A stretch of 64,000 nt of DNA from assembly GCF_000422285.1 (NCBI RefSeq), contig NZ_AULM01000017.1, forward strand, positions 1 to 64,000, read 5' to 3'. The first letter of the stretch is position 1; each line of letters begins with the position of its first letter. Source of the stretch: Desulfatiglans anilini DSM 4660. GTDB lineage: Bacteria > Desulfobacterota > DSM-4660 > Desulfatiglandales > Desulfatiglandaceae. The position numbers were made by a program, and so were the translations under genes. The notes beneath the pieces were generated by a model, which was not told the origin of the DNA, ran no database searches, and saw only the letters and a program-made list of their open reading frames with translations. Below are positions 51,995-64,000 of this stretch, piece by piece.

Positions 51995-52185
51995 CCCGCC
52001 CCCTGCGGGGAGCCGGTGTCTTCACACCCTTTCGGTGAGCAGTCCCACCGCTTCGCAGGGGGTCCCGGTTTGGGCGGTATCGAGGAAATCAGGTGCCTGT
52101 GCGGAGGCGACCTGCAGGTCGCCGCACAAGCAAACGGGCAGATTGACGCCGAGATTGGCCAAAAAGACCATTTCCGGATGGAAAC
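51995..52185 (+). repeat. Dispersed palindromic repeat copy with module B
   Basis: Two module-B-like hairpins (GCCCGCCCCCTGCGGGGAGC region, and CACACCCTTTCGGTGAGCAG then CCGCTTCGCAGGGGGTCCCGG) precede the main element: GTATCGAGGAAATCAGGTGC, centre GGCGACCTGCAGGTCGCC, right arm GATTGGCCAAAAAGACC and CATTTCCGGATGGAAAC. Ends 42 bp before the hdrC start. Confidence 0.85.
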
Positions 52186-52707: not shown

Positions 52708-53591
52708 ACCGATATGCATTCTTCCTGGGCTGCACCATACCCGCCCGCTCCCGCAATTATGAGATGTCGGCGCGAGCGGTTGCGAAGCGGCTTGGATTGG
52801 AGATCGTCGATATTGCGGATTTCGGGTGTTGCGGATTTCCGATGAAGGCGACGGACCAAGCGGCGGCGGGTTTGCTTGCGGCCCGAAATTTGGCACTGGC
52901 GGAGGCCGCAGGGATGGACATCTGCACCCTCTGCAGCGCCTGCACCTCGATGTTGTCGGAGGAAGCGCACCGCCTGGCTCACGACGCGGGGCATCTCGCA
53001 GAGGCCAACCGGCATCTGGCAGGGATCGGCCGCAGTTGCAGCGGGACGGCGCGAGTCAGGCATTTTGCCCGGGTGCTCATTGAAGACGTGGGGCTCGACC
53101 GGATCAGAGAGAGTATCACCGTGGACCTGAAAGGTCTTCCAGTGGCGATTCATTATGGGTGCCATTACCTCAAGCCTTCGGAGATCTATCCCGGCTGGGA
53201 TGATCCCGAGGCCCCGAAATCGATCGAACGGATCCTGGAGGCGATCGGTGCGCGGCCGGTGGCCTATGCGGGTGAGAAGGACTGCTGCGGCGGCGCGGTC
53301 CTCGTGGCTGATGAAGATACGGCCCTTGGCATGGCAAAAGGAAAACTCGATCATGTCAAAGCAGCCGGGGCGAAGACCCTGTGCGTTGTTTGTCCCTTTT
53401 GCAGTGTCATGTACGACGACAACCAGAAGAGCATCGAGAACAAATTTGAGACGCGATACCAGATCCCGGTCCTTTTCCTTCCTCAGATCATGGGCCTTGC
53501 CATGGGGGTGGACCGCAAGGAATTGGGGCTCAATATGAATGTGGTCAAGACGAAGCAGCTGACGGGGGAGATCCTTGGACAGGACGAGTGA
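52704..53591 (+). CDS. hdrB: Heterodisulfide reductase subunit B-like protein
   Basis: 295 residues with two CCG domains. The first has FFLGCTIPARSRNYE and FGCCGFP followed by CTLCSACTSML; the second has HYGCHYLKPS, KDCCGGA and CVVCPFCSVMYD. In methanogens these Cys bind the noncubane [4Fe-4S] clusters that reduce the heterodisulfide. In sulfate reducers and syntrophs the natural disulfide partner is unknown. Overlaps hdrC by 4 bp and the next gene by 17 bp. Confidence 0.92.
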   Translation: MNRYAFFLGCTIPARSRNYEMSARAVAKRLGLEIVDIADFGCCGFPMKATDQAAAGLLAARNLALAEAAGMDICTLCSACTSMLSEEAHRLAHDAGHLAEANRHLAGIGRSCSGTARVRHFARVLIEDVGLDRIRESITVDLKGLPVAIHYGCHYLKPSEIYPGWDDPEAPKSIERILEAIGARPVAYAGEKDCCGGAVLVADEDTALGMAKGKLDHVKAAGAKTLCVVCPFCSVMYDDNQKSIENKFETRYQIPVLFLPQIMGLAMGVDRKELGLNMNVVKTKQLTGEILGQDE

Positions 53592-54597
53592 AGATGTTTT
53601 GGTGATTGGTGGAGGGATCGCCGGGCTCACCGTGGCGCTGGGGCTGGCAAAGGAGGGCTGGCGCCCCTGGCTGATCGAAAAGGAAGATCGGTTGGGGGGG
53701 CATGCAGCCGCCTATGTCTGCAAGGCGGTCGAAGGGGAGTGTCAGAGGTGCGGCGCATGCCTGGTCGACCTGGCCTTGAAGGAGCATGCGTCGGAGGCCC
53801 GGATCAAGACGCTGGTGAACGCCGCGATCGAGAGGATCACGCCGTCGGGAAGCGGGCACCTCGCTGCTCTGGAAACCCCGGATGGTTTGGTCGAGCAGCC
53901 TTTCAGGGCTGTCGTTTTGTGCCACGGTTTCACCCCCTTCGATCCCCGCTCCCGGACCAACCTGGGATATGGGCGTGTTCCGAACATCATGACCGGGCAT
54001 GAGCTCGAGGCGATGCTCAAGGTTACCGGCAGGGTGCTTCGGCCGAGCGACGGGGCGGTTCCGCGGCAGATGGCCTTTGTGCAGTGCGTGGGAAGCCGGA
54101 ACGCCAGGCTGGGACATCCCTACTGTTCCCAGGTCTGCTGCGGCTACGCGCTGCGGATGGCCAGGCAGATCAAGAACCGTCTGCCCGAGACGGACCTGAC
54201 CTGTTTTTATATGGATATCCAGACCTATGGGAAGGATTTCCCCGACGTCTGGCCCGGGTTGGGCGGGGAGATCCGCTTTGTTCGGGAGATCCCGGGCGAT
54301 TACTTCAGCCTCGAAGGGGATAGGGTGGGAGTCCTGGTCGAAACGGGGGATGCCGTCGAAGAGCTGTCGTTCGACTTGCTGGTGCTGTCCGTGGGCATGG
54401 CGCCCTCTCCGGATCAGGATCGCTTCTGCGAATGGTTGAACGCACCGGTGGGGGCTGAAGGATTTCTGCGGTCGGATCCTGACAGCGGCGTATTCGTCGC
54501 CGGTAGTGCTGCAGGCCCCATGAGTATCGTCGACAGCATCGCCCATGCGCGGGCTGCGGTGAGGGACGTGGCGGGTTTTCTGGAGGGTCGGAAATGA
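53575..54597 (+). CDS. HdrA-like/QmoA-like FAD oxidoreductase (half-size)
   Basis: 340 residues, about half the usual HdrA. VLVIGGGIAGL at residues 8-18 is the FAD Rossmann motif. A cluster-binding insert has C49, C56, C59 and C62, as in HdrA/QmoA. A C-terminal FAD-binding GVFVAGSAAGP segment completes the flavoprotein. The start is TTG 53575 overlapping hdrB by 17 bp; no in-frame UGA is present, so it is not a selenoprotein. It overlaps the following gene by 4 bp (ATGA). The Hdr electron-bifurcation flavin would lie here or in the next protein. Confidence 0.88.
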   Translation: MDRTSEDVLVIGGGIAGLTVALGLAKEGWRPWLIEKEDRLGGHAAAYVCKAVEGECQRCGACLVDLALKEHASEARIKTLVNAAIERITPSGSGHLAALETPDGLVEQPFRAVVLCHGFTPFDPRSRTNLGYGRVPNIMTGHELEAMLKVTGRVLRPSDGAVPRQMAFVQCVGSRNARLGHPYCSQVCCGYALRMARQIKNRLPETDLTCFYMDIQTYGKDFPDVWPGLGGEIRFVREIPGDYFSLEGDRVGVLVETGDAVEELSFDLLVLSVGMAPSPDQDRFCEWLNAPVGAEGFLRSDPDSGVFVAGSAAGPMSIVDSIAHARAAVRDVAGFLEGRK

Positions 54598-56135
54598 AGT
54601 TGGGAGAATACGATAAGACAGTCTTGGTTATAGGAGGCGGACCGACCGCATGGGAAATGAGCCGTTCCCTCGCACAGGATGGAATCCCTGTCATGGTTGC
54701 CGCGCCTGACGACGCGGAGCGGGCCGATATGCCGTCCGGGGTCGAATGGATTTTGGGGGCGCAGGTGACGGATGTCATCGGGCAGGTCGGGGATTTTGCC
54801 GTCTGGTTGAAGGCCGGGGGCAAGCGGTTCGAGCGGCGCGCGGGGGCCATCATCCTGGCCCTGGATGCAAACCGTCAGCCGGGAGTGCTGCCTGCCGGCG
54901 CGGCCTTCGGTGAACGTATCCGGGCCATGACCGAGGCCGAAGACGTGCTGTTCGGTCGACAGGGGCATCCGTCCCTTCGAAGGGTGATTGTCCTGGACCG
55001 TTTGGATGGGTTGTCGACGGCGGCATCGCACGAGCGGCTTCTGCGGTTTGCCGTCAGGGTTCAGGAAGAGTGCAACGCCACGGTTTATGTCTTGACTTCC
55101 CAGGTGAAGGTTGCTTCGATCGGTCTCGAAATCCTGTATGGTCGTTTGAGGGACGGCGGAGGGCTCGTTGTCAAGCCGGATGCCGTTCAGGTGGAGACGG
55201 GAGACGATGCGGTCAGGATTCGTTTCAGGGATACGGTTCTGGACGAAGACGTGGTTCTGGAGGCGGATATGCTGGTCGCAGCCGAAGACGAGGCCCCTTC
55301 TCCGGAGCTGGAGCGTCTTGCGGGGGTGCTGCGCATCGAGCGCGACAAGCAAGGGTTCCTGCAGGCCGACAATGTCCTGCGGCGGCCATGCCTGACCAAC
55401 CGCCGGGGCGTTCTTTCAGTCGGTTCGAGCGCCGCCCCGTCGACGCAATGGGATACAGAACAAGGCGTCACGGCTGCCACGGTCGAGATCCGTGAGCTTT
55501 ACCGCTGGATCGAAGAGGAGGACCATCCGGACACCATCCTATACAACCGGGATTTCTGCGCATTCTGTTTGACGTGTTTCCGGGTCTGCCCCCACGGCGC
55601 GATTCATTTTACCGACCGGCCGAATTTCCTGCCGCTTGCCTGCCAACGTTGCGGACTTTGTGCCGCCGCCTGCCCGGGCGAGGCGCTGGAACTTGTCGGC
55701 TACGAGAAGGAAACCTTTTTCAAGACGTTGAGTAGCCTCAAACCCCTTGATGTGGAGGGTTCGAAACGGATCGTCGCCATCGCCTGCACGAAATCCGCCG
55801 GCCGGGTGCTGAATGCTGCGCCAGCGGATGCGGAGATCAGAAAGGGGCTGGCTTGGGTGGAGGTCCAGTGTGCCGGGACGATTCGGACCACCTCTCTCCT
55901 GCGGCTGCTCGCCCGTCCCGGACTGGTGGATGGAGTCCTGGTTCTGGCTTGCCACAATGGGAACTGTCGATCGGGGACGGGTACGGTCGTTGCCAAGAAC
56001 CTGGTGGAAAGCGTCAAGGTCCTCCTGAAGGCCATTGGCGCGGACCCGGGGCGGATCGGCTACATCTCGACTGCGGCCAATGACGAGGTCGAGTTGGCCC
56101 GGCAGATCACCGCGTTCCGCGACGGACTTCGCTGA
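54594..56135 (+). CDS. HdrA-like / ferredoxin / MvhD fusion protein
   Basis: 513 residues. An N-terminal Rossmann domain has LVIGGGPTAWEMSRSLAQDG. Two [4Fe-4S] motifs follow near 321 (CAFCLTCFRVCP) and 350 (CQRCGLCAAACP). The last about 90 residues are MvhD/FrhD-like (VEVQCAGTIRTTSL, LACHNGNCRSGTG). Such fusions couple Hdr to an electron donor such as a hydrogenase or formate dehydrogenase and resemble QmoB. No donor gene is adjacent, so the partner is unknown. Confidence 0.88.
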   Translation: MKLGEYDKTVLVIGGGPTAWEMSRSLAQDGIPVMVAAPDDAERADMPSGVEWILGAQVTDVIGQVGDFAVWLKAGGKRFERRAGAIILALDANRQPGVLPAGAAFGERIRAMTEAEDVLFGRQGHPSLRRVIVLDRLDGLSTAASHERLLRFAVRVQEECNATVYVLTSQVKVASIGLEILYGRLRDGGGLVVKPDAVQVETGDDAVRIRFRDTVLDEDVVLEADMLVAAEDEAPSPELERLAGVLRIERDKQGFLQADNVLRRPCLTNRRGVLSVGSSAAPSTQWDTEQGVTAATVEIRELYRWIEEEDHPDTILYNRDFCAFCLTCFRVCPHGAIHFTDRPNFLPLACQRCGLCAAACPGEALELVGYEKETFFKTLSSLKPLDVEGSKRIVAIACTKSAGRVLNAAPADAEIRKGLAWVEVQCAGTIRTTSLLRLLARPGLVDGVLVLACHNGNCRSGTGTVVAKNLVESVKVLLKAIGADPGRIGYISTAANDEVELARQITAFRDGLR

Positions 56136-56210
56136 TCTGCAGCCGTGGCCGATTTTTCGGGAGTCGATGCCGGGTCGCCGAAGATTCTGGAAAGACCTGT
56201 GCCAGATAGC

Positions 56211-56387
56211 TTCCAATCCGGAAATGAGGATTTTTGGATAATATCAAGGAAATCAAGCGTTTTCGCCGAGGCGACCTGCAGGTCGCCGCACAAGCAAACG
56301 TGCAGATTGACGCACAGATTGGCCAAAAAGACCATTTCCGGATGGAAACTGAGTTCTACCGCAAAATCATTTCCGTATGGAGACCAG
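56211..56387 (+). repeat. Dispersed palindromic repeat copy
   Basis: The clearest copy: TTCCAATCCGGAAATGAGG, ATATCAAGGAAATCAAGCG, GGCGACCTGCAGGTCGCC, CAAGCAAACGTGCAGATTGA, GATTGGCCAAAAAGACC and CATTTCCGGATGGAAAC, ending near 56349. A further degenerate tip (ATTTCCGTATGGAGACC) follows to about 56387. It lies between two convergent operons. Confidence 0.9.
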
Positions 56388-56404: not shown

Positions 56405-59400
56405 TCAGGGTTCGTTGGGCGAGGGTATGCTTTCGAGTGCCTGATCGAACTTACGGGCGATCAGGTACTCGAATTCTTTGCCGATGAAGTCCCTGTTTTT
56501 TTTCAAGAATGATTTGATGCTATTCCAATAGTCCACCAGATCTTCAGGGTTGTGAATCGTCAGGAGGATGTTCTCGATCTCTGTCAATTTTTCCCGTCTC
56601 AGATTGTCCTTCCTCAATTCATAGAAGTCGTTCAGCCGTTGCTTCTGCTCTTCGAGAAGGCCGATTTCCCACGAGCGGTCTGCAAGATCACGGAATATCG
56701 CGTGCATTTCACCAAAGTCGTGGCATAAGGTCATTTGCCTGTCCGCCTGATGCACCAGCATGTCCGTGATTTCTGTCAATCGCTTTTCATAAGACCTTTC
56801 GAGCTTCAACTCATAATCGTCCGTTTGAAAGGGATATCTCCTCAGCGATCTGAGGCTGTAGTGGAAGTAGTCTTTGAGTTGATCTATTTTGTCGATACTT
56901 TGCATGTAAACGATCTTTTCTTCGATATCGAGCTGGTCTCTGAAGTCGACGGAGAGGGTATTGGGGAACTCCTGCTTCCTCAAAATGAGGTCGGTCTTGC
57001 TGGTCAGCAGCCGTTCCAGTTCCTGCCTGTCGTTCCAGATCTTTTCGATCGTAATGCTGTGGAGGTAATCGTTCAAGGCTTCGTATCGTTTGTCGATTGT
57101 CCGGCTGACAGGATAAAAATTCAGGAAGAGCGGCTTTTTCTGGGCGAATGCGCGTTTGGCGACCAGGAGCACCAGTGCAAGGAGCTTGATCTGGTTGTCA
57201 TAACTCAAAAAGTTGCTTACGCGTTCATACCAGAAGATGCGGATTTCGTCGTCGACGAGGTGATTGAGCAGAAAATGGCGGAGCGATTCGGGGAGCGTCT
57301 GGAGCGTGTTGTAGATTCTCAGGGCTTCGAAGGCCTCTCTTTCGAAGGTCGCGTAACCGATGCTGGTGAATTTGTGCCGTTTGTAAATATACTCCAGAGG
57401 TGTTTTCAGGACCAGATTGGCTATATCGATGAATTCCACATACCGGATGCCGCGCAGGCGCAGGATACGTTCGACCGAGAAAATCATCTTGCCGGCGGAG
57501 ACGCGTTTCGTTTTCGGCAGTTTTTCCCATCGGGTCGATTCGAGATAATCCCAAGGGGTTGTTTCCTCCGTCAGCCCGGTCTGCTGATACTCTTCGAGGG
57601 CGAAAAAGATCCCGCCGCGCAGAGCGAAACGCTCCTCGACAGCCTGGGACAGAGTGGTTTTCCCGTCCAGGATTTCATGGCAGAGGGTTCGCGTGCGGAA
57701 CATCCAGTCAGCGAGGTCTTCAAGAAGGAGATCTTCCCGGATGGCTGAGAGCATGATGAAGGAAAGCACGAAAAAGGCATCGAAAATAAGCGGGTCGCCG
57801 GCTTGGAGGACATGCTGGATAGCCAGGAAGGAAAACTCCCCCCGCAGGATGTGGTGCAGCAGGCTGTGGTGCCTTACCAGGAAAATGAGGGCGTTCAATT
57901 CCTCCGTGTCCATTCCATAACGCTGATCCAGAGGTTCATGGGAGAGGATGCAGGCGCCGGCGTCCCCCAGATCCCCAGGATTGATCAGACCATGGTATTT
58001 CTCCCGCAGCTCGGGGATCCGCCCGATGTCCTGCATGATGAACGCCTTGACGAGGGCCCTGAATACAGGGCGATTGCCTCCGATACGGTCCACCGTTCTT
58101 TCCAGTTCTTCGATCTGGGGTTCGCTCGTCCCGATAATGCCGGTGGCCATCGGTCCGAACTCTTTTTTGGCGAGCTTGTGCAGAACGGACACGTCATGGA
58201 ACGCCTCTTTCTGGTGTGTAAAGAGGGCCTGAAGTTTTTTGGTGGTGGCGATGATGTAGTGGAGTATCGGCGACTTCAGGTAAAGATGACCAGACAGATC
58301 CGCTTTTTCGAGGGCGGTCAGCTCCGGCAGAACGAAAGCGAGCAGATGAGGTGCGTATTGGTGAAGGAGATCCAGGTTTGTGTAGACCTCGTCCGGCTTG
58401 AAGATGTTTTTCAGAAAGTTTGCGCGCAGATTCTCTTTCAGCTCTTCGGCCCGGCTGAACCAGCGACGTTGCCGGGCAGGAAGCTGCAAGGCCTGTGTTT
58501 CGTTCTGTTCGGTGATCCTCTGGTGGCTTTGACAAAAGCTTTCGATGTTTGAAAAAAGGGCGTCGAGGGTCCCGAGCTCTTCGAGGGGAATGTCCGAAAG
58601 GTAGCTTCCCTCGAGCTGTGCCGCGAGAACCTGCAGCTGCCGGGTGTCCCGCTCGATGTCGATGTATGAGATCTCGAGGGAGTGAAAACGCTCATTGACC
58701 CTGAATTGGAAGCCGGTTCCGATGACGAAGGATGTTTTGGCGAGGTAAAGCTGTCGGCTGAACTGGCGCAGGAAAGCCGGGCTGAGATATTGGGTGTTGA
58801 TGGTGCGCACTTCTTTTTCAACTCTCCTGACCCGTTTTTCGGCATCGGCTGTTTCGAGGTCCGCCAAGATGGGATTGAAGTTGATAATTTCGTTTCGGGT
58901 GATATGCACGCTGATCCACAGGAGAATATATACGAGGCGGCTCTCCATACGCTGGGAAAGATGACCGGTTCCATGGAACTCGATGCCGAAGAACTTGCGG
59001 TAAAACTCGGGGGCCTGAATGGGGTCCGATTTCAGATAAGCGGATTCGAATTCCCCCAGGGTTTCGACGAACTGAATAGCGTTCTCTATCCTGAGGATCC
59101 TTTTGGGATCGTAGTCAGCTAGGACCTCCTTTTCCATGGGGCCTTTGTGGCAGAGTTCCTGCCAGTTTTCCATAAATTCAAAATGATTCATCATTTTGAG
59201 GCTTTTGCGGACGATCTTGCTCTTGATTCCCCCCATGGAGGTGATCTTTTCATCGAGGAGACGGTCCCAGTCAAGGTCGCGGTTGGTCACGATCCGAACG
59301 GTGTATTCATAGAGTTCGAACAGCTCCAAAAGCTGCTCCGAAGGCATCGGAGACTGGCGGGCCGCCTCTGTTTCAGCCATGGTCATCAGGCGGCAATAAC

Positions 59401-61123
59401 GGAGGAGGTTGACCGCCTGCTTGGGTTCCAGGGTCCTGGCCAGATCGGACAGGGGTTTCAGCGCCTTTTCGTTCATTTTTCCCGAGATGACGCGTCCCAT
59501 GGCGCTGTGGCTCAATACGATGAGGGCGATTTCCCGCAGCTCATGATGCGAAAAACCGAAAAAACGAAGATAGGGAAGGTTTTTCAAAACGCGGGTGCGG
59601 GAGCCTTCAATGCCGTCGGGATTCAGGTACTCGCGTATTTTCTTGAGGCGGTTGATCTTCTGAATCAATTTGAGGGCATCGTTCAAGGCGGGATGACGCC
59701 GGGCCTTGTTCTCGAGGGGCTGTCGAAGACGGTCGATGTAAATTTGAGGACTGCCTCTGTATTTTCCTTTCTTGAGTTTTTCGAGCACCCTGAGAGTCCG
59801 CAGCACGTATTCAAAGGAGTCTCTGTAGTCGGCCAACAATTCCGTCTGGCACCCGATCAGCCTGGACTCCGTGACCTCTTCGACGATTCTGGCGATCTCG
59901 GGCTCGATGACTTTTTTCTGGCCCAAATAGTTGATCAGATAATCCGGTGCGTAATCTTTGCACGAAAAGCGCTCCGCCCAATCTTCGGCCACATACTCGG
60001 GGACGAGCGGCTTCAGGAAGATTTTATCGAAGAAAATGGAGACCGTTCGCTCCCAGTTTTTGGCCTGGTTGCGAAGAAGGGCGGGTTCTGCAAATTCAAA
60101 ATCGAAATAGGGAAGGGTTTCAATCTCCTCAACCGATATTTCGTCAATCGGTTTTCCTTTGGTGAGGTGGTCGAGAACCTCTTGTTCAATATAGAGGCCG
60201 CTCAAATAATTCTGAAAATCAGAGATATTAATAAGGCTTTTGGATCCGTTGAACTTGTATCTCTTCTTCGTCTTAAAAATATGCGTAAATAGGGCAAACT
60301 TTTTTAATTCTCTCAACGTTTTAAGAGTCACTTCGGTGCTGCGATTGGTTTTTTCAGTGTGATATTTTGCAATTATAAAAATTTCACCATTGTCTTTCAA
60401 CAAGCGATACACATGCGCTAATATATAAATCGCATATTGATCAAGCCTTCTCCTTGACAGCATTTCGCGGGATAATGCGCTGAATTTTTCAAACAGAATG
60501 ATCTCGTAAATATCACTTGTAAATAAGATAAGATCGAAGGTTATGTTGAGGTTTATCAACGTATCAATCGAATCTATCACGATAAATTCATGATCTTTAA
60601 AAGTGAGACTGATTTCATTGATGACAAGGTCATCCTGTTGTCCAATGATTCCGATCGTGCTGTGCTCTTTTAAAAATTTCTTTTTGCTGTGATACTCGAT
60701 GATTCTGCCGATTTGATAGACTCTCGAGCGGATATGCGCAAGGGTGTTCGATAGAATGTGAAAAGGGATGAGATAATAGGGCCGCCCGAGACTCGAAAAA
60801 CGGATCAGAAGGCCGATCCGTTTGTAGATTTGATTGATTCTCTTGAAGTTTTTGCGAATGTCTTCAGGGTTGTCGAGATCGATGGATTGAAGAAATTCTA
60901 TATCATCATCGTCGAGGCGGTCGTATATTTCGAAAAGGCCCAATCCATAGGCATTGCCGCCGAAACGGCTTTGCAGTTGGGACGGATGTTTGAGAGACGG
61001 AAATGTCCCCAGAAGGATGTCTGCCGGGTCGATGCCAAGAGAAGCGTATTCTTCAGGGCGGATCGGTTTGAAGGAGCTTTCTTCGAGGAGGTGTTCCGTA
61101 GAGAGCGATTCACTGGGATCCAT
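56405..61123 (-). CDS. Very large protein with methyltransferase-like and GlnD-like HD regions
   Basis: About 1,572 residues from ATG 61123 (a TTG eight codons upstream is also possible). Around residues 155-290 a Rossmann-like pattern (STIGIIGQQDD, FDLILFTSDIYE, RLLKDNGEIFIIAKY) resembles a degenerate SAM methyltransferase. Around residues 1025-1150 a GlnD-like HD region appears: AFIMQDIGRIPE, where HD is replaced by QD, and LVRHHSLLHHILRGEF. The rest is helical, with no signal peptide. I do not recognise the family as a whole. The 5' part (60180-60750) is much more AT-rich than its neighbours, a sign of transfer or special constraint. Alone in its transcription unit. Confidence 0.7.
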   Translation of the reverse strand: MDPSESLSTEHLLEESSFKPIRPEEYASLGIDPADILLGTFPSLKHPSQLQSRFGGNAYGLGLFEIYDRLDDDDIEFLQSIDLDNPEDIRKNFKRINQIYKRIGLLIRFSSLGRPYYLIPFHILSNTLAHIRSRVYQIGRIIEYHSKKKFLKEHSTIGIIGQQDDLVINEISLTFKDHEFIVIDSIDTLINLNITFDLILFTSDIYEIILFEKFSALSREMLSRRRLDQYAIYILAHVYRLLKDNGEIFIIAKYHTEKTNRSTEVTLKTLRELKKFALFTHIFKTKKRYKFNGSKSLINISDFQNYLSGLYIEQEVLDHLTKGKPIDEISVEEIETLPYFDFEFAEPALLRNQAKNWERTVSIFFDKIFLKPLVPEYVAEDWAERFSCKDYAPDYLINYLGQKKVIEPEIARIVEEVTESRLIGCQTELLADYRDSFEYVLRTLRVLEKLKKGKYRGSPQIYIDRLRQPLENKARRHPALNDALKLIQKINRLKKIREYLNPDGIEGSRTRVLKNLPYLRFFGFSHHELREIALIVLSHSAMGRVISGKMNEKALKPLSDLARTLEPKQAVNLLRYCRLMTMAETEAARQSPMPSEQLLELFELYEYTVRIVTNRDLDWDRLLDEKITSMGGIKSKIVRKSLKMMNHFEFMENWQELCHKGPMEKEVLADYDPKRILRIENAIQFVETLGEFESAYLKSDPIQAPEFYRKFFGIEFHGTGHLSQRMESRLVYILLWISVHITRNEIINFNPILADLETADAEKRVRRVEKEVRTINTQYLSPAFLRQFSRQLYLAKTSFVIGTGFQFRVNERFHSLEISYIDIERDTRQLQVLAAQLEGSYLSDIPLEELGTLDALFSNIESFCQSHQRITEQNETQALQLPARQRRWFSRAEELKENLRANFLKNIFKPDEVYTNLDLLHQYAPHLLAFVLPELTALEKADLSGHLYLKSPILHYIIATTKKLQALFTHQKEAFHDVSVLHKLAKKEFGPMATGIIGTSEPQIEELERTVDRIGGNRPVFRALVKAFIMQDIGRIPELREKYHGLINPGDLGDAGACILSHEPLDQRYGMDTEELNALIFLVRHHSLLHHILRGEFSFLAIQHVLQAGDPLIFDAFFVLSFIMLSAIREDLLLEDLADWMFRTRTLCHEILDGKTTLSQAVEERFALRGGIFFALEEYQQTGLTEETTPWDYLESTRWEKLPKTKRVSAGKMIFSVERILRLRGIRYVEFIDIANLVLKTPLEYIYKRHKFTSIGYATFEREAFEALRIYNTLQTLPESLRHFLLNHLVDDEIRIFWYERVSNFLSYDNQIKLLALVLLVAKRAFAQKKPLFLNFYPVSRTIDKRYEALNDYLHSITIEKIWNDRQELERLLTSKTDLILRKQEFPNTLSVDFRDQLDIEEKIVYMQSIDKIDQLKDYFHYSLRSLRRYPFQTDDYELKLERSYEKRLTEITDMLVHQADRQMTLCHDFGEMHAIFRDLADRSWEIGLLEEQKQRLNDFYELRKDNLRREKLTEIENILLTIHNPEDLVDYWNSIKSFLKKNRDFIGKEFEYLIARKFDQALESIPSPNEP

Positions 61124-61172
61124 TTGCACCCTTTGGAAAAGAATCAAAAAGGTTGTTTACGCTGTAAAAATC

Positions 61173-62276
61173 TCATTCAGCCCTGAGTTTGATGTCGGAG
61201 TTTGGAGGCAAAGGCCATGTTTTCAAAGCGGAAACGAAGCGCTCCCAGACAGCTCCCAACCCGTTGGGTTGCCGGATGCAAAAAATGATCATGAGCAGGA
61301 TGGCGGCTGTTTCCCAGACGGGGAACGGAAAATGGGACCAAAGGGCGCTAAATGTGCCGGAGATTCGATGGCTTGCAGAGCTGAGTACTTCAGAAAAAAG
61401 GACCAGGAAGGATGCACCGAAAAAGGGACCGATCAGCCGCCCCACGCCTCCGAAAAGCACCAGGAGGATCAGTACAAGGGATAATGGGACTCCGAAGCTG
61501 TGCACCGTCGGCAGGCCATAAAGCAGAAAGAAAAGACCGCCTGCCATGCCGGCGCAGAAAGCGCAGACAGAAAAGCCCAGGCATGTCAGAGGCCATTCCC
61601 GGATGCCGGCTGCCGCAGTTGAAGGGCGGTCTTCACGCAGGCTCCTGAGCGCCCTCCCATACCGCGTGTGAAGGAGATTCTGGAGCAGGAGGGTGATCAG
61701 GATGGCCGTGAGCAGCGCCACGATCATCAGGGTTGGTTGAGCGTGAGGCTTGAACGACGCTGAAGCAGGCACCAAAAGTAAGACCGTTTGATTCCAGAGA
61801 GGGTCGTGTTTTGGAAGAAGGGCCAATCCATACGTGATGAGAAGTTGCGCCAGGAGGGTCACCGCGGCAAGATGAAAGGGTTTAAGACGAGCCGAAGGCC
61901 ACGCGAAGAACAGGAAACTCAAAGCGGCAGCGCTTGTTCCGCCGGCAGGCACGGCAAGCCAGAAAGGCATGGCGAGCTTTTCCAGGAAAAACATCGTGGC
62001 AACGGCGCCCGTACCAAATAAGGCACCCTGGCAAAAAGAAACCTGTGCAGAAAATCCGATCAGGAAATTGAGTCCTTGAGCCGCAAGCGCATAGATGGAA
62101 ATTCTAGTCAAAAGAGACAGTCCGTTTTCAGGCGCCCATAGGACGAGGGCAAAGCTGATCAGGCCGAGAGGCAGCAGAAAATGCAGGGTTGTCGAGGAGC
62201 GCCGAATCGGATGAATGATCCGAGAAACGAGGGCTAAATCCGAACCGCTGTCTTTTTCTGCCTTTCGATAGGGCAT
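61173..62276 (-). CDS. livM: Branched-chain amino-acid-type ABC permease LivM
   Basis: 367 residues with about 8-10 membrane segments. The GLNFLIGFSAQVSFCQGALF helix and the cytoplasmic TRYGRALRSLREDRPSTAAA loop, which contacts the ATPase, identify LivM; VLFGGVGRLIGPFFGASFL is the late conserved segment. It would import branched-chain amino acids or aromatic/aliphatic acids. LivH, its obligate partner, is not found where expected. A minus-oriented repeat tip lies 28 bp upstream of the start. Confidence 0.85.
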   Translation of the reverse strand: MPYRKAEKDSGSDLALVSRIIHPIRRSSTTLHFLLPLGLISFALVLWAPENGLSLLTRISIYALAAQGLNFLIGFSAQVSFCQGALFGTGAVATMFFLEKLAMPFWLAVPAGGTSAAALSFLFFAWPSARLKPFHLAAVTLLAQLLITYGLALLPKHDPLWNQTVLLLVPASASFKPHAQPTLMIVALLTAILITLLLQNLLHTRYGRALRSLREDRPSTAAAGIREWPLTCLGFSVCAFCAGMAGGLFFLLYGLPTVHSFGVPLSLVLILLVLFGGVGRLIGPFFGASFLVLFSEVLSSASHRISGTFSALWSHFPFPVWETAAILLMIIFCIRQPNGLGAVWERFVSALKTWPLPPNSDIKLRAE

Positions 62277-62304
62277 GTTGTGTATCAGCCTGAAGAATTA
62301 ATGA

Positions 62305-62446
62305 GTTTCCATCCGGAAATGGTCTTTTTGGCCAATCTCGGCGTCAATCTGCACGTTTGTTTGTGCGGCGACCTGTAGGTCGCCTCCGCACAAACGCTTG
62401 ATTTCCTTGATATTGGCCAAAAATCCTCATTTCCGGATTGGAGGCT
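62305..62446 (-). repeat. Dispersed palindromic repeat copy
   Basis: GTTTCCATCCGGAAATGGTC, TTTTTGGCCAATCTCGGCG, centre GGCGACCTGTAGGTCGCC, ATTTCCTTGATATTGGCC and CATTTCCGGATTGGAGGC. Full-length; its tip ends 28 bp upstream of livM. Confidence 0.9.
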
Positions 62447-62539
62447 CGGTCCTACCGGGACATCATTTCCGCATGGATCTAATGGGTGTCTCTTCGTGCG
62501 GAAACGGTCTTTGGGTCGCCGTATAAGGAAAAGCACCGT

Positions 62540-62582
62540 TTGACGCCGGGAATGGCAAAAAAGATCATTTCCGAGCGGAAAC
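62540..62582 (+). repeat. Partial repeat (right arm only) at the truncated gene end
   Basis: TTGACGCCGGGAATGGCAAA then ATCATTTCCGAGCGGAAAC matches the right arm of the repeat and stops at the TAG of the acyl-CoA synthetase-like ORF. Confidence 0.65.
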
Positions 62583-63790
62583 TAACAGGGCATTCCGAAT
62601 CTGTCTTCGAGCGGATGCGCTCGCATCTCTTGTAAGGGTATGCCATAGGCCCTCAAAAAGTCCAGTGTTTGTCTTTTCAAAGGGGAGCCGTGTGTGTAGG
62701 CGGCTCGACAGGCTGCAAGGCCGATCCGCGCCTTCAGCGGTCCGCAGAGCAGGTGGCGAAGGGTCCAGCGCAGGACCGTTTTCAGGCGTGAGGTCCGGCC
62801 GAAGGAAGCGGCCTCGGGGTCGCCGGCGTTGAGCGAAAGATTGAGCGCATGAAGCCTTTTCAACACGGGTGTGCCGCCTTCTACGGCGAGTCGGATCTGT
62901 GCGGCGAATTCCTGCCAGAAGGTGCATCTCGCCACGACAACATCGGGGCGGATCAAACCAAGGTCTTCGGCGAGTGTTTCAGGTGTTTCAGGAAAGTGGA
63001 TCACCATTCCCGCGCAGGTGGCGACCGCAAGAGACCAGAATTGCTCGACAGGAGATGGCGCAGGTTCGAAAGACGCCCAGTTCGCCCCTGAAAGCCACGG
63101 AAAGGCCTTCAGCCAGGTTGCGGCAGGAACAATCAGGCCTCGATGCGTCATAGGGACCAGGGGCGCAACTAAATTCGCCGAATCCCTCAAAATCAGGCTG
63201 GCCTGATCGTCCGGGTTTCCCGCCCACAATTCTTTGATAAAAAGATCAGGCTGGGCGGTATCGATTTCTCCACCTATCTCGATGACCTCAGCCAGCCCAA
63301 TCAGCCAAGGATTGTCCCAGTAAGGGTGCGTCAGGCTTGGATCGACATAGATCACCCTTTTCAAAGAGGGGAGATCCTTTCGATAAAGCAGCAAATGATC
63401 GATTTCGCCATATCCTGATGCAACAAGCAGAGAAGCGTGAGTCCTTCTCAAACATTCCAGTGTGGCGGCTGACAAGGGGCCGCTCGGCAAAGAGACACTT
63501 GTGCAGCCGAGGGCTTGGGCCGCAAGGGTGCAGAACAGCCATTCCGACTGGTTGCTCAGGAGGATCGCTATCTTTTCTCCGCGCCGCACCCCAAGAGCGA
63601 TAAATCCGAGGGCAATTTTTCTGGTGTAGTGCAGATATTGGCGCCTGGAATGGGTTTCCCAGTGACCCAGACGCATTTCCTTGATGGCGGGATGGCCATC
63701 GATATGGTCTTCGGCCTGCCGCCAAAGGATCTGTGGCAGGGTAAATCGGGTCAGTACGGCAAGGTTTTCGATGTCAGATACCGGATTCAA
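62582..63790 (-). pseudogene. Decayed AMP-binding acyl-CoA synthetase (3'-truncated)
   Basis: 402 codons, against about 600-650 for the acyl-CoA synthetases usually placed inside deltaproteobacterial liv clusters. The N-terminal fold is recognisable (RQYLHYTRKIALGFIALGVR, KIAILLSNQSEWLFCTLAAQ, LGCTSVSL). Where the ATP P-loop TSGTTGxPKG should stand the text is LRDSANLVAPLVPMTHRGL, so the catalytic loop is lost. The ORF stops where the YGxTE motif would follow (FLRAYGIPL), and a repeat right arm begins exactly at its TAG. TTG 63790 is a likely start. I infer a degenerate gene, although the frame is free of stops. Confidence 0.65.
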
Positions 63791-63821
63791 TCTGCAACTC
63801 CGTCCTGCAATGATGGGAAGT

Positions 63822-64000
63822 TTAAGCAGGAAAATGTGCGGAAAGCGGTTCGGAGCGGCCAAAATAGGAATCGAGCACGCGGGGATGATTCTGAATGAAT
63901 TCCGGCGCCCCTTCGGCGAGCTTGGCACCGAAGTCCAGGACGACTACTCTCTCGGCAAGTTCAAACACCCTGTTCATATCATTTTCGACCAGAAGAATGG
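63822..64000 (-). CDS. livG: Branched-chain amino-acid ABC transporter ATPase LivG, C-terminal part
   Basis: Only the last 59 codons are in the window. ILLVENDMNRVFELAERVVV followed by LDFGAKLAEGAPEFIQNHPR and SYFG is the H-loop-to-C-terminal segment of LivG-type ATPases, with N replacing the usual H in the VEHDM H-loop. That His normally senses the ATP gamma-phosphate, so this copy may be impaired. It precedes the acyl-CoA synthetase-like ORF and livM on the same strand. Confidence 0.8.
   Translation of the reverse strand, partial: ILLVENDMNRVFELAERVVVLDFGAKLAEGAPEFIQNHPRVLDSYFGRSEPLSAHFPA

Follow-up and report, generated by a model that had tools for sequence, protein, structure and literature searches.

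The window, a stretch of 64,000 nucleotides from Desulfatiglans anilini DSM 4660, forms an end of contig C15 (74,651 bases) in a genome of 4.67 Mb, and genes were read past its edge. A livG-like ATPase gene, a shortened acyl-CoA synthetase-like gene and a livM-like permease gene follow each other on one strand (Table 1). Directly 3' of livM, and in the same orientation, comes a gene for a protein of 1580 aa that has no match to any Pfam family above the family's cut-off. The open reading frame of the synthetase-like gene extends over 62582-63928 (-), or 448 aa; its upper part is probably non-coding, because a genus mate (G001) has a stop there, and the real protein is probably about 400 aa long. 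Copies of a dispersed palindromic repeat lie in the 305-base gap between the synthetase-like gene and livM, and elsewhere in the window. Past the window edge, a response regulator, the TRAP transporter genes DctP, DctQ and DctM, and a synthetase of 551 aa that has both AMP-binding domains occupy the site at which relatives carry livK. No description of this locus was found among the titles and abstract openings that literature searches gave.

Table 1. Features of the locus and related elements. Positions are those of the window unless a contig (C) or locus (L) is named.
Feature	Position	Strand	Remarks
livG-like ATPase gene, 3' end	63822..64000	-	full gene C15:63822-64667, 281 aa; ABC_tran, BCA_ABC_TP_C
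Shortened acyl-CoA synthetase-like gene (about 400 aa)	62582..63805	-	no P-loop, later core motifs or C-terminal domain
Degenerate repeat arm (74%)	62493..62583		end overlaps synthetase stop codon
Full repeat copy in synthetase-livM gap	62304..62446	+	G001 carries a 96% identical copy in this position
livM-like permease gene, 367 aa	61173..62276	-	fast-evolving
1580-aa ORF	56405..61147	-	follows the operon in intact family loci too
Repeat copy (93%)	56208..56350	-	not found in corresponding G001 spacer
Further copy of the same palindromic element	52069-52185		
TRAP transporter, complete 551-aa synthetase and response regulator	C15:65069-70561 (= L010:2070-7562)		beyond the window
Synthetase of G044 with independent in-frame C-terminal deletion	L081 4109-5365		another genus

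The ancestral arrangement can be read from related genomes. A locus search with the window protein as query found no loci; a search with an alignment of the synthetases of 12 relatives, from which the window's was left out, gave 80 loci, and 24 of these were used in the structure alignment. Syntenic loci were fetched from 36 other genomes of the family and order (16 and 20), which makes 37 with the window. In the intact layout, EtfA-EtfB-TetR stand divergently to livK-livG-synthetase(about 650 aa)-livH-livM-livF, and within the family a gene of 1580-1640 aa closes the operon after livF, its product being 50-60% conserved. Comparison with an intact cluster of a relative, which the initial annotation had proposed, thus recovered the order livK-livG-synthetase-livH-livM-livF-(1580-aa gene). 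An intact family locus (e.g., JACNIU010000109.1 of the Desulfobacterales MAG NIOZ-UU19) shares gene order and synteny on both flanks with the window; unlike the window, it is complete, and it is slow-evolving in most genomes. Only livG, the shortened synthetase and livM are retained in the window, and livK, livH, livF and the C-terminal part of the synthetase are gone. The livH gene is present in 32 of the 37 loci, undeterminable in three and absent only in the window and its genus mate. Downstream livF is present in 24 loci, undeterminable at a contig end in eight, and absent with enough contig in five (the window, G001, G035, G012 and G037).

The shortened synthetase retains a recognizable N-terminal half. 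Its Pfam AMP-binding match covers profile positions 2-127 of 384 only (E 5.7e-15), against 3-359 plus a C-terminal domain in G016, whose ortholog is intact. Modelled with AlphaFold2, the short protein gives a fair structure (pLDDT 78, pTM 0.79) with adenylating enzymes among its PDB matches (TM up to 0.67, by query length), so that Pfam and fold matches both place an AMP-binding fold in the N-terminal part. The loss of the TSGTTG P-loop, seen in the initial annotation, is borne out: in the P-loop block (ortholog residues 201-220) the window keeps none of the 11 residues invariant in 24 intact orthologs, and the motif site reads LRDSAN, or LRDSAG in G001. The gene does end early, as had been noted, and the missing part is longer than the 200 or so residues first estimated; homology stops at about residue 395 of the 649 in the ortholog, so about 250 residues are missing, including the C-terminal domain with its hinge. 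No remnant of this C-terminus was found at the locus by tblastn; the full-length query also matches the neighbouring 551-aa synthetase (24%). The protein shares N-terminal homology and fold with the ANL (AMP-binding) acyl-CoA synthetases, the nearest NCBIfam model being FadD11, and differs from them in lacking the P-loop and the C-terminal domain. Ligase activity would not be expected of a protein with this sequence.

The transporter part is reduced as well. Pfam and NCBIfam profiles identify LivG and LivM as homologs of the livKHMGF family of branched-chain amino acid ABC transporters, at scores below the NCBIfam equivalog cut-offs, and the operon order of the window's ancestor resembles that of this family. 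Compared with it, the window lacks livK, livH and livF, and LivG has lost the signature glycine (LPYG to LPTF) and the H-loop histidine in both the window and G001. Both residues are needed for ATP hydrolysis. The sequence VEND, flagged earlier in the LivG tail, was confirmed over the full gene. Walker A and Walker B are retained. LivG keeps 99 of the 152 residues invariant in 24 intact orthologs, among them 18 of 23 in two Walker A blocks and 13 of 16 in the Walker B block, with 6 of 15 in the Q-loop block and 5 of 16 in the block after Walker B. Of the parts of a functional Liv-type ABC importer, the locus lacks the second permease, the second ATPase, LivK and the full set of ATPase motifs. 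By tblastn, no remnants of livH, livF or livK were found at the locus, where the LivF query hit LivG itself (25%). The window genome and G001 yielded no ortholog of livH or livF elsewhere; the best matches were a 44% livH paralog and a 55% livF paralog, both in a second, complete cluster on C4.

In place of livH, the initial annotation had seen two repeat copies. The absence of livH stands, and the gap holds one full copy and one degenerate arm of the repeat. It had also placed the TAG on a repeat arm, and this holds, since the stop codon at 62582-62584 overlaps the end of the arm. The element, of 140-147 bases, has at least 41 stretches at 92% identity or more in its own genome, a lower bound as 40 of 376 first-look candidates were scored. 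It was matched in 26 of the 61 genomes searched, its own and G001 included, and it folds as a strong hairpin (-71 kcal/mol, z -9). Three copies lie inside the window within about 10 kb of one another. The copy at 56208-56350, next to the 3' end of the 1580-aa gene, has no counterpart in the corresponding G001 spacer, so the element is either mobile or prone to loss. Palindromic repeats of the REP/REPIN type, which are mobilised by a RAYT transposase (Y1), are likewise short, dispersed palindromes with a strong hairpin, and the genome holds 10 Y1_Tnp matches; the unit of 140 bases is unlike theirs.

The age of the losses is given by G001, whose genome lies on one 4.8-Mb contig. It has the same order of LivG, short synthetase, repeat, LivM and 1580-aa gene, the same VEND, no P-loop, and a synthetase stop at the same site (TGA, for TAG in the window). 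Since layout and motif losses are shared, the losses arose on the genus stem, before the two species split, and an assembly fault or recent break is ruled out by the same layout on a single contig. The initial annotation had looked, for evidence against its deletion reading, to a relative with the same short synthetase and a livH in an intact system elsewhere; G001 is such a relative in its synthetase, and a livH ortholog elsewhere was not found. On the opposite strand, two genes (340 and 513 aa) at 53575-56135 (+) are identical or nearly so in the window and G001 (dS 0 and 0.018), and the genes flanking them differ at dS about 0.2, which suggests recent exchange or gene conversion of this pair.

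The three remaining genes have changed fast and have stayed intact. The window lies at 6.0 (LivG), 5.1 (synthetase) and 10.8 (LivM) times the usual distance from intact family members, against 1.1-1.2 times for EtfA, EtfB, TetR and the 1580-aa gene. Between the window and G001, the only two species with this layout and the one pair on which the constraint estimate rests, dN/dS is 0.19 (0.12-0.29) for the synthetase, 0.23 (0.14-0.37) for LivG and 0.38 (0.26-0.55) for LivM. The TRAP, EtfB, response-regulator, 551-aa synthetase and 1580-aa genes give 0.04-0.08, and TetR has no amino-acid change. Beyond the 1580-aa gene, on the other strand, one gene is identical, and another has a dN/dS of 0.25 (0.04-0.89), with too few differences to judge. 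Within the synthetase, the N-terminal 190 codons give 0.13, and constraint is weakest, at 0.31, in the hundred codons with the lost P-loop. Neither species has a stop or an indel in livG, the synthetase or livM, the lone gap in the synthetase alignment being an effect of the chosen start; in two spacers, 2 and 3 indel events were counted over 299 and 394 aligned bases. Differences are unequal among codon positions in all three genes (p = 8e-9, 5e-4 and 3e-4). In neutral simulations over the full distance, the fraction of frames staying open was 0 for the synthetase, 0.016 for LivG and 0.0045 for LivM; over half the distance, for one lineage, it was 0.0075, 0.10 and 0.07. Spacer divergence is 0.11-0.12, against dS about 0.2, and with this as the neutral rate the ratios become about 0.4, 0.4 and 0.7, so that LivM would be weakly constrained. 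That the three products are still selected as proteins is shown by their open frames, the lack of indels and the bias among codon positions. With no stops, no frameshifts and no dN/dS near 1 in either species, the genes are constrained remnants and not neutral pseudogenes. The locus had been called eroded at the outset; this is right for the C-terminus and livH lost from the ancestral cluster, but the lesions are old, and what remains is open in both species and constrained.

Similar losses occur in other lineages, though in genomes that are fragmented. G035 and G044 (the latter only 58% complete) have no livK, and G035 also has no livF, the G044 contig ending there. In the G044 synthetase, 711 bases are deleted in frame, starting where the window's homology ends; the ends of the deletion joint carry a six-base near-match, and no copy of the repeat element was found in its 7.5-kb locus. 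In G012 and G037 livF is gone and the P-loops read TSGTTD and TSGTAG, and the G037 synthetase stops at residue 486. The P-loop is TSWTTD in G017 and TSGTRG in G082, where LivG has AEDD, and it is changed in G044 too. Values of dN/dS are 0.28-0.35 for G035-G044 (neighbours 0.10-0.13) and 0.17-0.25 for G012-G037 (neighbours 0.07, 1580-aa gene 0.13). Erosion of the operon thus looks recurrent across lineages. In a further genome, G081, neither livK nor livG lies beside the synthetase.

The reading to which we lean, with modest confidence, is that the locus is a reduced descendant of the livK-livG-synthetase-livH-livM-livF operon whose remaining products serve a reduced, non-catalytic role. The ancestral operon, beside TetR and EtfBA, probably served to import a fatty or other organic acid and to activate it; the TetR protein carries a YsiA-type C-terminal domain, which fits fatty-acid regulation. 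The genus has lost its binding protein, one of the two permeases, one of the two ATPases and, from the synthetase, the catalytic half. With a TRAP transporter and a complete synthetase now at the livK site, uptake and activation probably passed to the TRAP block. Judging by their motifs, the three remaining products would no longer make acyl-CoA, and LivG would hardly be able to hydrolyse ATP in the normal way. They would most likely form an ATP-binding, membrane-attached, non-catalytic set that is co-expressed with the 1580-aa gene. The constraint could also stem from selection against misfolded, toxic products or from polar effects within the operon on the 1580-aa gene, and not from a useful function.

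This last point leads to the main rival, a slow decay in which selection on a retired operon has weakened, the genes are on their way out, and the frames stay open mainly since stops would block transcription of the 1580-aa gene or misfolded membrane proteins would harm the cell. It is a possible account, though a doubtful one. The 5-11 times usual distance of the three genes, against 1.1-1.2 for their neighbours, fits decay, as do the stepwise losses of livK (G035, G044) and livF (G035, G012, G037), the changed P-loops of G044, G012, G037, G017 and G082, the intermediate dN/dS of the G035-G044 and G012-G037 pairs, and the 1580-aa gene directly 3' of livM. However, polarity alone would not curb amino-acid change, and dN/dS has upper bounds of 0.29, 0.37 and 0.55; Walker A and Walker B, moreover, are preferentially kept. 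How the deletion came about is a separate matter. The initial proposal, that a single recombination between repeat copies removed livH together with the synthetase C-terminus and so broke the system, is a model of the deletion step that could accompany either a reduced role or slow decay, and it draws on the full repeat and degenerate arm lying exactly in the gap with the stop overlapping the arm. We consider it rather unlikely. With at least 41 copies genome-wide, the presence of one in a spacer is not special; G044 lost the same half of its synthetase by an in-frame deletion with no element found in its locus; and the losses of livK and livF are left unexplained. Moreover, blastn found no element in 33 loci of other genera (G044 and intact loci included, L185 and L188 left out), and an intact ancestor that already had the repeat is thus not known. 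The repeat may have brought about the deletion, or it may have come in afterwards.

The long stem leading to the window and G001 (4.09 changes per column) would also fit a distant homolog set that was transferred into the same place and is not the old operon at all. This is very improbable: after G001, the best matches among 85 genomes of the order are syntenic orthologs of the same family, no closer homolog occurs in 395 genomes of the phylum (own and G001 included), and the locus agrees with that of the family in gene order and on both sides. In the tree, the window groups with the other fast-evolving rows (G082, G012, G037 and G017), a placement that came with a warning of long-branch joining and was not used. 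A wider form of the preferred reduced-role reading, speculative and in our judgement unlikely, is that liv-synthetase operons within the order have repeatedly and independently turned into catalytically stripped, selected sets. The window genus would be the most advanced: a LivG that binds ATP but does not hydrolyse it, the one permease and a synthetase N-domain without ligase activity would act together, next to the 1580-aa protein, as a sensor or a scaffold.

The locus is a transporter-synthetase operon in which half the genes and the catalytic motifs were gone before two species split, and in which selection at the protein level persists. Caution is needed in annotation, as these genes should be described neither as a working importer and acyl-CoA synthetase nor as dead. 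The TRAP block at the livK site may be a functional replacement of the Liv importer. Related lineages display earlier steps along the same path, and whether such operons decay or are repurposed becomes testable.
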